A stretch of 5,761 nt of DNA. Source: an uncultured Dorea sp. Lineage in GTDB: Bacteria > Bacillota_A > Clostridia > Lachnospirales > Lachnospiraceae. The notes beneath the pieces are model-generated. The model was given only the letters and a program-made list of their open reading frames with translations, made no database searches and was not told the origin of the DNA. This document shows positions 3,094 through 5,761 of this stretch, in pieces. Every line of letters begins with the position of its first letter. The stretch's first letter is position 1. Position numbers and translations under genes: made by a program. The stretch covers positions 1-5,761 of the forward strand of contig CAOKJI010000147.1 of the NCBI GenBank assembly GCA_948468495.1. Reading direction: 5' to 3'.

Positions 3094-3990
3094 CTACAGA
3101 TAAAAAGGATAATGCCTCACAAACGCCGTAAAGGCTCTTGTAATCGGATAATCTAATAATTCTTTCAGCGTTACATAGAATATCGTCCTGTGTAAATCCA
3201 CTTCCAGCGGAATCAGCACATGATGTTCCGCTTTTAGTGTATGTGCAATAGAATTGGAGGAAAAGTATACGGCAAGCCCCTGTCCTGCAAGCTGCATGCC
3301 GATATCAGACTGGCTTGTCTCGCATACGATTCTGGGGACTACAAAATACCGGTCAAATACCTGTTCTAATTCTTTGCGGAAGGCGGAGTCTTTGGAAGGC
3401 ATAATGATATTCTGCCCTTGGAAATCTTCGATTTTGAGGACGTCCCTTTTGGCGAAGGGATGTGTTTTGCTGACGACAGCTACATAGTAATCATCCTGAA
3501 GTTTCTGATAATAAAGGTCTTCTTCTTTCCGAAGAATATTTTCATGACTGATGATAAATGCAGAGTTAATAGAGCGCGCCAGTAGAAGCTTTAAGAGCGC
3601 CCGGCTTCCGTCTACAGTGATTTTGTATGTGATTCCCGGATGCTTTTGGTGGAAATCTGTGAGAATCTGAGGGTAATTTAAATATCCGGCAATCCACAAC
3701 ATCCCGACTCGGAGCGTACCGTCCTGCATCCGGCTGAATTTGTCCATTCGGTCGGTGAGCTGCTCGATATTATTTAAGATACGTTCTGCGGCGGCCGCGA
3801 AATGTTCTCCCGCTTCAGTCAGGGAAACAGACTTGGAATGGCGGATGAAAAGCGGGATTCCAAGTTCCTGCTCCAGTTTGAGAATCTGCTGCGACAGGGA
3901 AGGCTGCGCGATGAATAATTCTCTTGCGGCAGCGGAAAAGTTCTTTTTTTCTGCAACTTTTAATACGTATCGTAGTTGGTGAATCTGCAT
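3094..3990 (-). CDS. LysR-family transcriptional regulator
   Basis: A DNA-binding regulator of 298 residues, the usual length for this family. The N-terminal winged helix-turn-helix occupies about 1-60, with the family signature spread over FSAAARELFIAQPSLSQQ and the following KLEQELGIPLF. A linker helix follows (about 60-88), then the effector-binding domain of periplasmic-binding-protein fold (about 90-298, beginning GTLRVGML). Family members normally bind as tetramers and respond to a small molecule, often the substrate of the pathway they control. The gene is convergent with E3 and divergent from the SLC13-type permease. By the usual layout of this family the permease promoter is its most likely target, together with its own promoter. 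The effector cannot be read from sequence. The ATG at 3990 is supported by a ribosome binding site and by the normal N-terminus MQIHQLRYVLKVAE. Confidence 0.95.
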   Translation of the reverse strand: MQIHQLRYVLKVAEKKNFSAAARELFIAQPSLSQQILKLEQELGIPLFIRHSKSVSLTEAGEHFAAAAERILNNIEQLTDRMDKFSRMQDGTLRVGMLWIAGYLNYPQILTDFHQKHPGITYKITVDGSRALLKLLLARSINSAFIISHENILRKEEDLYYQKLQDDYYVAVVSKTHPFAKRDVLKIEDFQGQNIIMPSKDSAFRKELEQVFDRYFVVPRIVCETSQSDIGMQLAGQGLAVYFSSNSIAHTLKAEHHVLIPLEVDLHRTIFYVTLKELLDYPITRAFTAFVRHYPFYL

Positions 3991-4090: not shown

Positions 4091-4127
4091 AATATTTTAC
4101 AAATAACAAGAGTTTAAATAAAATATT
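4091..4127. repeat. 9-bp inverted repeat at the predicted transcript start
   Basis: AATATTTTA (4091-4099) and TAAAATATT (4119-4127) are perfect reverse complements separated by 19 bases. The surroundings are extremely AT-rich (7 G/C in 4081-4140). It could be an operator or a weak 5' stem of the permease transcript. Chance is plausible in such biased DNA. Confidence 0.4.
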
Positions 4128-4147
4128 AACAAATATAACATATGATG

Positions 4148-4377
4148 TGTTACAATTCGCTGGGGATTTGTCCTGCCCGGAAAGCTTTGCAGCAGGAAGC
4201 GGGCGAGACAACATTCCAGTGAACTAACTGCTAACGGAGACTAAGAAACTCAGGAAAGCCTTCGTTTCCAAGTCTCCATAAGCAGTGGATTTCACTTCCA
4301 TTAAAAGCGTCTCTTAATTGCCCTGCTTCCTGCTGCAAAGCTTTCCGGGCAGGCCAAATCCCCAGCGAACTGTAACA
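4148..4377. repeat. 230-bp fold-back palindrome upstream of the permease gene (MITE-like element or structured leader)
   Basis: The outer arms 4148-4200 and 4325-4377 are reverse complements at 51 of 53 positions (mismatches A4155/C4370 and T4171/C4354), starting TGTTACA and ending TGTAACA. Pairing then continues inward with internal loops: GGGC/GCCC (4201-4204 with 4320-4323), GAGAC/GTCTC (4205-4209 with 4309-4313), AGTGAA/TTCACT (4218-4223 with 4291-4296), ACTGCT/AGCAGT (4227-4232 with 4281-4286), GGAGACT/AGTCTCC (4236-4242 with 4271-4277) and GAAAC/GTTTC (4245-4249 with 4264-4268). The whole element folds into one rod. It is much richer in GC than the DNA to its left. No reading frame of its own, transposase or convincing target-site duplication is seen. 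It accounts for most of the 414-bp gene-free stretch between the LysR and permease genes. Confidence 0.9.
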
Positions 4378-4389
4378 TGGATTGTAAGG

Positions 4390-4404: not shown

Positions 4405-5761
4405 ATGGCGAAGAAAGGCACAAAGGAAACATTGGTATTGGTTCTGGCGCTGATTGTTATTATCGGGGCAAGATTCATACCGGGTATGGGAGGATTGTCC
4501 GCTGATGCGGTGGCGGTTCTTGGAGTATTTTTTGGTTCTCTGATTATGTGGATTGGTTTGTCCATTGACTGGCCCAGCATGATTACTTTGCTGGCTCTGG
4601 GGTTTATCCCGGTTTTTGGATTTGGGGGAACCTTTTCCGGGGCGTTTGGCAATACGACGGTTGCATTTTTGATTTTTACGTTTGCGCTGGTGTATCCGCT
4701 GGCTAAGACGAATTTTGTGCGGAGATGTACGATTTCATTTATTACCAATGGAATTGCGAGGAAGGGGCCCTGGTATTTTGTATGTTTCCTGTTTGCGGCG
4801 GTGACATTTATGGGATTATTCATTTCGCCGTCTGTATTGTTTGTGGCGTTTATGCCCTTTTTGGAAGATATTTTTCAGGTGCTTGAGGTGAAGAAGGGCG
4901 GAAAGGCCGGCAACATGATTATGATGGGAACGGCTTTTTGTATTAGTTTATCCTCTGGCATGACGGCGATTGGCCATGTGTGGCCGACGATGGCAATCGG
5001 CTATTATACCGCGGCTACCGGGAATGATGTAAATCAGTTCCAGTATATGGCGATGGGGATTCCGGCGGGTATCCTTCTGATTGTTCTGTTGATTCTGGTG
5101 TTCAAATTCATTTACAGGCCGGATGATATCACAGATATTCAGCCGGAGAAGGCAATGAGCCTGCGGGGGACTGTCCCGGCGGCGGATTTCCGGGAGAAGA
5201 TTATTCTGGGCGTTATGTTCCTGACTGTATTCTTATGGGTGGGACCGAGTCTGATTAAAGGAGCGCTTCCGGATGTGTATGCCATGGTAAATGGCTGGTC
5301 TACGGCCATGCCTCCTCTTCTTGGCTGTGTAATTTTGTTCGTGGTACAGGTAGACGGCGAACGCATCCTGAATTTTAAAGAAGTAACCAGCAAGGGGATT
5401 CTCTGGGGGAGCATCCTGATGACGGCGGCGGCTACTCAGCTTGGCTCCTGCCTGACCAATGAGGAAGTGGGAATCAGCGCATGGCTGACCGGAACATTAG
5501 AACCGCTGACAGGAAGTCTGCCAGTGATAGGAATGATTCTGTTCTTCATGACCTGGGCGGTCGTTGAGACTAATTTTTCTTCCAATATTGTCACCACAAC
5601 GGTTGTCAGCGCCGTTACGTTATCCGTATTAACAGCGCTTCCGGAGGGCTCTGTCAATGTGGCGGCAGTGGTATGTATGGTGGGCTTTGCAGCAGGCGTA
5701 TGTAACATGACTCCGGCAGGGCAGAGTACCGTCAATACGGTAGCGATTGGTTCCGGATGGA
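4405..5761 (+). CDS. SLC13/DASS-type sodium:anion symporter-like permease (3' end outside window)
   Basis: An integral membrane carrier, open for 452 codons to the right edge. Families of this type run about 450-500 residues, so little is missing. Hydrophobic segments recur throughout, for example about 9-21, 36-52, 58-72, 83-98, 122-150, 217-234, 267-283, 374-388 and 418-432. A hydrophilic loop spans about 236-263. The two-repeat layout of the family is visible. The second repeat has SSNIVTTTV (Ser393-Asn394), corresponding to the SNT motif, and later TPAGQSTVNTVAIGSGW (436-452), corresponding to the conserved Thr-Pro/Gly-Ser-Gly segment. The first repeat has FISPSVLF (139-146) where SNT is usual. 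Family substrates are di- and tricarboxylates or sulfate, mostly with Na+; the substrate here is unknown. It is divergent from the LysR gene, which probably controls it. More distant ion-transporter-superfamily members (citrate or arsenite-type) are the alternative. Confidence 0.82.
   Translation, partial: MAKKGTKETLVLVLALIVIIGARFIPGMGGLSADAVAVLGVFFGSLIMWIGLSIDWPSMITLLALGFIPVFGFGGTFSGAFGNTTVAFLIFTFALVYPLAKTNFVRRCTISFITNGIARKGPWYFVCFLFAAVTFMGLFISPSVLFVAFMPFLEDIFQVLEVKKGGKAGNMIMMGTAFCISLSSGMTAIGHVWPTMAIGYYTAATGNDVNQFQYMAMGIPAGILLIVLLILVFKFIYRPDDITDIQPEKAMSLRGTVPAADFREKIILGVMFLTVFLWVGPSLIKGALPDVYAMVNGWSTAMPPLLGCVILFVVQVDGERILNFKEVTSKGILWGSILMTAAATQLGSCLTNEEVGISAWLTGTLEPLTGSLPVIGMILFFMTWAVVETNFSSNIVTTTVVSAVTLSVLTALPEGSVNVAAVVCMVGFAAGVCNMTPAGQSTVNTVAIGSGW

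Follow-up and report, generated by a model that had tools for sequence, protein, structure and literature searches.

A probable MITE-like insertion in the presumed leader of a permease gene, with variable arms and a conserved core

The window, that is, the whole stretch of DNA analysed here (5,761 nucleotides), carries a palindrome between a LysR-type regulator gene on the minus strand and a permease gene on the plus strand (Table 1). Elsewhere in the window, Pfam recognises a gene for a 2-oxoacid dehydrogenase acyltransferase and one resembling dihydrolipoamide dehydrogenase. The arms of the palindrome (4148-4203 and 4322-4377, 56 nt each) are 95% complementary, with agreement at 51 of the outer 53 positions, and the pairing goes on in blocks to a 4-nt tip. 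The minimum free energy of the folded strand is -145.4 kcal/mol, compared to -61.5 ± 4.6 kcal/mol for 200 shuffled sequences, none of which was as low (z = -18.2). The near-perfect palindrome of 230 bp described in an earlier note on this DNA is thus real, with its bounds refined: as judged from the family ends and the 8-bp duplications (see below), the element is a 228-bp unit spanning 4149-4376, and positions 4148 and 4377 are to be counted as flank. The element has no coding capacity for a transposase, the ORFs that overlap it running in from the permease frame or its reverse. Its left flank is AT-rich, as the same note had read from the sequence. The promoter that the note had placed upstream is present as a promoter-like site, albeit three such sites were found in the scanned region against 1.7 expected; the promoter scan detected none inside the element on either strand. 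The element lies about 25 bp downstream of this site, in what is presumably the 5' leader of the permease gene. Since the site ends at 4124, a transcript from there would carry the hairpin before the start codon at 4405, and we would guess that the hairpin lowers or tunes permease expression.

Table 1 Features of the window at and around the palindromic element.
Feature	Position	Strand	Remarks
LysR-type regulator gene, divergent from the permease gene	3094..3990	-	Pfam
Promoter-like site TTTACA-17-TAAAAT	4096..4124	+	upstream of the element; 10/12 consensus positions; related loci have a similar sequence
Degenerate sequence ATATGATGT, presumably the left copy of the target duplication	4140..4148	+	3/8 match ungapped; deduced from the family rule and 237 = 228 + 9
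Whole element, 228 bp	4149..4376	+	oriented with the core as in relatives, GAACTAACTGC...; ends GTTACAATTCGC / GCGAACTGTAAC fit the family ends
Left terminal inverted repeat GTTACAATTCGC	4149..4160	+	family pattern GTTACNGTTCAC, from which the window copy departs
Left outer arm, differs between copies	4149..4202	+	inverted repeat, 95%
Structured core, conserved, including its tip and the mismatched places inside it	4203..4321	+	alignments A1 and A3
Right outer arm	4323..4376	+	inverted repeat
Right terminal inverted repeat, GCGAACTGTAAC on the + strand	4365..4376	-	family ends
ATGGATTG, right-hand copy of the presumed 8-bp target duplication	4377..4384	+	identical letters at the empty site of L002
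Permease gene, Na_sulph_symp (PF00939)	4405..5761	+	Pfam; runs off the window end

Related loci were collected by a permease scan, which resulted in 36 loci, two of them close (L001 and L002). L001 is 97% identical around the element and carries the element itself at 99.6% identity, one of the two arm mismatches being repaired in it (52/53 as against 51/53 in the window). L002, which is 86-91% identical over long matches, lacks the element at the site: its sequence there is TATAAC-ATGGATTG-TAGGG, as opposed to TATAAC-ATATGATGT-(GTTACAATTCGC ... GCGAACTGTAAC)-ATGGATTG-TAAGG in the window. The window has 237 bp more than L002, which fits a 228-bp element plus a target duplication of 8-9 bp; as the window's own left copy of the duplication agrees at 3 of 8 positions ungapped, the duplication of this particular copy is deduced from its right half together with the net gain of 237 bp. 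No BLASTN match to the element was found at E ≤ 1e-3 in the remaining 34 permease loci. L002 is a natural element-free comparison for the permease leader.

The element is a member of a dispersed family. A nucleotide search with the element yielded at least 39 matches in the genome of L001 (G001) and at least 45 in the genome of L002 (G002), the strands of the palindrome being counted separately and 40 candidates being scored per genome, and no match in G003 and G004. A covariance model of the core (E ≤ 1e-4) found at least 130 copies in G002 and at least 35 in G001 (150 candidates scored in each) and a single copy in G686, with no copy in the remaining 8 of the 11 genomes of the genus. Across the bacterial family, 20 of 299 genomes were found to contain the core of about 120 bp (model R1), and across the class 3 of 391 (model R2), the latter being G002 and two genomes from the family-level set; these genome counts are lower bounds, because the searches over 40 genomes had stricter filters. 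Copy number is very uneven across genomes, and in drafts it is probably too low, because draft contigs break inside elements. In the draft G001, contigs C155, C226, C279, C280, C194 and C335 start or stop inside elements. BLASTN searches of plasmids and phages with the element gave no match, and an exact 27-base arm pattern was not found in viral contigs. In G002, several 239-bp copies stand in tandem (L171:1500-2826), and two adjoining ones have GTTTGATG/GTTTGATA/GTTTAATA in common at their joints, as if one had been inserted next to the other. A 299-bp copy (L231:301-599) is broken by an unrelated inverted repeat of about 60 bp.

The terminal pattern GTTACNGTTCAC occurs 169 times in G002, as compared to 2 occurrences of the reversed pattern. 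In a set of 53 core-bearing elements with recognisable ends, which includes both length groups (about 228 bp, the window type, and about 239 bp), an 8-bp target duplication was perfect in 17 and matched at 7 or more of 8 positions in 23, whereas shuffled partners gave 0.09 on average and at most 2 (200 shuffles); direct repeats of 4-7 and 9-12 bp were perfect in 0-1 of the 53, and a clear duplication was absent in 30 copies. Copies of about 228 bp with the duplication include L055 (8/8) and L059, L098 and L058 (7/8). When the junctions were defined by the arm ends and not by the family ends, direct repeats were not in clear excess (scores of at least 7 in 5/52 against 5.4% of shuffled junctions, and of at least 8 in 3/52 against 1.5%). 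Perfect 8-bp duplications were also detected in three of seven core-less elements with GTTACNGTTCAC ends (L228, L230 and L232) and a 7/8 match in a fourth (L234), a clear duplication being absent in the other three. Since core-less elements also show duplications, it is the ends, and not the core, that go with movement in this lineage. The core-less elements (L226-L230, L232 and L234) are 77-181 bp long; some resemble internally deleted core elements, and the interior of others is unrelated.

The window element is thus short and without transposase coding, shares its terminal inverted repeats (12 bp) with other copies, and belongs to a family with dispersed copies, an empty site in relatives and a fixed-length (8 bp) duplication; taken by itself, the window copy matches at 3 of 8 positions. 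The MITE-like fold-back insertion proposed in the earlier note is supported by the dispersed copies with their variable flanks, the family duplication and the empty site of L002, while the target duplication that the note had asked for is evident in the family and too degenerate in the window's own left copy. From the ends, the duplications, the copies and the empty site we infer a transposase that would recognise the GTTACNGTTCAC ends and would have moved the element in trans; acting on these ends, it may have put the element into the permease leader in an ancestor of the window and L001.

The inner part of the element behaves differently from the arms. Cores of ten genomes besides the window's can be aligned (alignment A3, 38 sequences), and 27 of the 32 predicted pairs have at least one sequence in which both sides are changed with the pair kept. 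In alignment A1, which comprises 32 of 37 listed cores (L075, L078, L086, L097 and L103 were left out, and L094, L099 and L101, with incomplete cores, and L105, in which no core was found, had been dropped before alignment), 26 of 36 predicted pairs are changed on both sides. The unpaired letters of the core are also conserved, and the persistence of conserved mismatched places, which arm copying should erase, suggests selection on them. Neither the window nor 14 copies matched any Rfam entry at the gathering score, and a lax threshold yielded two weak matches only (E 1.7 and 3.4). The earlier note had opposed two outcomes, dispersed copies proving a mobile element and covariation proving a structured RNA; both were obtained, dispersed mobile copies and a covarying core, and as the core of a mobile element covaries, the test is not exclusive. 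We propose that the inner core is a separate conserved Lachnospiraceae hairpin module, which would have been caught in an inverted-repeat element. In L206 and L212 (G301), the tip of the core bears a long, almost perfectly paired hairpin, at the foot of which stand a run of A and a run of T, as in a bidirectional terminator.

The arms are near-perfect within a copy and often unrelated between copies. In a second set of 43 loci (L151, L201, L211, L215 and L225 were skipped of 48), arm length ranges from 16 to 130 bp, and most arms are near perfect. Ten arms of G030 gave 20 matches, all 20 being between the two arms of the same element. Arms related between copies inside one genome were found in G137, in G301 and among the 239-bp copies of G002; going by these sequences, the arms diverge fast and are not always made anew.

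Pairs selected in an RNA would, on general grounds, be expected to tolerate G.U and not A.C. In 52 elements, the arm mismatches comprised 45 G.U, 50 A.C and 43 others, and the core mismatches 13 G.U, 21 A.C and 33 others (of 88 matches, 57 had passed a score limit meant to exclude the palindromes' own reverse-strand matches, and arms were scored in 52). The arms of the second set (43 of 48 loci) had 24 G.U, 28 A.C and 68 others; the counts of the two sets are not added, because the sets overlap (e.g. L111 = L186, L115 = L154, L131 = L187). Mismatches in 30 young copies were 17 G.U and 31 A.C. The tolerance of G.U over A.C expected of a structured RNA was therefore not found in the arms, and the lack of bias suggests that the pairing is maintained at the DNA level, perhaps by template switching, and not by RNA selection. 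A structured RNA, either a regulatory leader or a trans-acting RNA, with its pairing kept by selection and its copies spread by duplication, would agree with the covariation of the core across genomes (27/32 pairs), the conserved unpaired core letters, the very low folding energy and the position in the presumed 5' leader. We consider it very unlikely, however, given that G.U is not preferred over A.C in the arms (45:50, 24:28 and 17:31), that the window and 14 copies are without an Rfam match at the gathering score, and that the element is missing at the L002 site. Selection on an RNA rod, which the earlier note had listed among its explanations, is not supported for the arms.

Comparison of orthologous copies bears on how the arms are kept. 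In the pair L102/L139, 9 of 50 arm columns are changed on both arms, all 9 still matching, and 8 are changed on one arm; in the pair L083/L097, there are no paired and 5 unpaired arm changes. In the 30 young 239-bp copies, mismatch within a copy (0.10) is not below the difference between copies (0.08), and 34 paired arm changes were counted against a shuffled mean of 9.7 and a maximum of 17 (500 shuffles), a number inflated by shared ancestry, with one pair accounting for 13 of the 34. Repair between arms, as suggested in the earlier note, is partly supported, by the absence of a G.U excess and by the paired changes of one orthologous pair, but not by the other pair. L066/L086 have the same site with the core inverted relative to the flanks, and in L100/L138 the right half of the element is deleted; L042/L136, L053/L143 and L098/L140 were read by eye as remnants. 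Template switching has been reported to homogenise inverted-repeat arms and invert spacers (PMC8604942) and to create and maintain hairpins (PMC8794818), effects described there in yeast coding DNA and in RNA genes. The mismatch symmetry, the paired changes in one orthologous pair, the inverted core and the half-deleted copies support such a process: replication through the hairpin would copy one arm onto the other, so that the arms stay complementary, and the same template switching may flip the core and give deletions. The inverted core of L066/L086, a single orthologous pair, could also be taken for an invertible switch, with the permease controlled by inversion of the core between the arms. 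This we regard as extremely improbable, because none of the window's four long ORFs matched a recombinase family in Pfam, an inversion would change little in a nearly palindromic core, and no promoter-like site was found in the element on either strand.

L068/L090 (= L041/L049) have the site and the outer end in common and differ in their arms, which may reflect replacement by another copy. Capture of arms from the target was considered for G106/G690: at L148/L314 the site is short in G690 but keeps GGACGCAAGAAGGC, which an insertion and a deletion between two GGG explain equally well.

Altogether, we propose with considerable confidence that the palindrome is a non-autonomous MITE-like insertion moved in trans via its GTTACNGTTCAC ends, the arms of which are kept by template switching, and which carries the core inside as a separate hairpin module.

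The features of some other genomes have to be weighed against this proposal. In 26 of the 43 loci of the second set, the left arm is immediately preceded by GAC and the right arm immediately followed by TG. A fold-back element transposing as its own folded single strand, with the core as recognition hairpin and with arms remade by self-primed copying at each insertion, would explain these edges, which occur whatever the arm length (16-130 bp), as well as the G030 arms, private to each copy (20/20 matches to own arms), and a core that is conserved between genomes where the ends differ. It is nonetheless hardly probable: young G002 copies have arms in common, therefore arms were inherited on movement there; core-less elements move with the same ends; and the exact 8-bp duplications point to an ordinary double-strand transposase. 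Of the 28 GTTACNGTTCAC-type ends in G106, ten form five pairs with a spacing of 142-145 bp, and the core elements analysed in this genome (7) have edges other than GTTACNGTTCAC; on the core elements inspected in other genera, GTTACNGTTCAC ends were not seen. We also entertain, as a tentative and rather unlikely reading, a Lachnospiraceae-wide family of mobile hairpins: the unit that moves would be the conserved folded-DNA core, present in distant genomes and having GGAC and TG[GT] at its borders, which would be read as a single-strand hairpin by a putative protein, with hypervariable, often copy-private arms regenerated by fold-back synthesis; in the window lineage it would have been captured by an ordinary inverted-repeat transposon. 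This doubtful reading, a hairpin-borne unit with regenerated arms, would apply to the GGAC/TG elements of other genomes, for which the comparison of G106 and G690 yielded no clean empty site.

The MITE is a known kind of element, and this family is without a recognised description in Rfam or in the open-licence literature searched, no title or abstract of which was recognised as describing such an element. It shares with bacterial MITEs (PMC10969869) the short length, the lack of genes, the terminal inverted repeats, the target duplication, the dispersed copies and the formation of stem-loops. It differs from them in that nearly the whole length pairs, the core is conserved between distant genomes, the arms differ between copies yet pair within each, and no autonomous partner was identified. 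Unusual is the conservation of the core between distant genomes in elements with different ends, along with arms that vary freely yet pair. Correia, RUP, ERIC and RPE are likewise small mobile repeats, some of which fold when transcribed; however, the passages of PMC2229807 cited here name none from Lachnospiraceae, and they are set side by side with our element by description, not by sequence. Repeated stem-loops have been described in families, some of them in Clostridium perfringens and C. tetani, with sizes of 31-93 for these two species in the part of PMC2267715 used here, this likeness being also one of description and not of sequence. Like our family, REP and REPIN are dispersed small palindromic repeats called mobile in the sections of PMC3116915 and PMC3733652 cited; REPs, however, measure 20-40 bp and carry GTAG or CGTC tags, whereas the element is about 230 bp long, with other ends and an 8-bp duplication. 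Membership in REP/REPIN, the partner of which is the RAYT transposase, was rejected, as the length and the ends differ.

With more than 100 copies in one genome, the family is a large natural data set for RNA selection and DNA-level arm homogenisation as causes of well-paired stems. Covariation alone would suggest a structured RNA for the core, but the approximately equal G.U and A.C mismatches speak against it, and the G.U versus A.C check is usable on other candidate RNAs found by covariation. The conservation of the core in elements with different ends raises the question of which protein or process reads the core.

An autonomous partner was searched for around the ends. None was seen by eye from the spacing among the 100 ends listed of the 169 in G002 and among all 28 ends each of G001 and G106, several of the genomes being fragmented drafts. 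ORFs were examined around unpaired ends at six loci, and no transposase family was matched by Pfam in the ORFs searched. Two ORFs of L235, taken by eye for a transposase, were rejected, as they have no Pfam family and are located outside the end; an ORF between two ends (L309) turned out to be a Crp-like regulator. A core-less 131-bp relative used as bait recovered more ends, but no transposase-like ORF common to the loci. A recurrent neighbour gene as partner was also discarded: the largest cluster consisted of the elements' own reading frames and others of orthologous or overlapping loci, while two clusters join different loci with only 25-37% identity (L041, L042, L049, L052 and L129; L050, L125 and L150). 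Elements of two genomes, L041/L049 and L129, stand near related neighbour genes (ORFs 33-54% identical, one of them Der-type GTPase-like by eye), either by coincidence or owing to a shared insertion hot spot. In G233, the core elements L113 and L132 have similar arms, and their outer ends look by eye like TATACTTTTT inverted repeats, unlike those of the window family.
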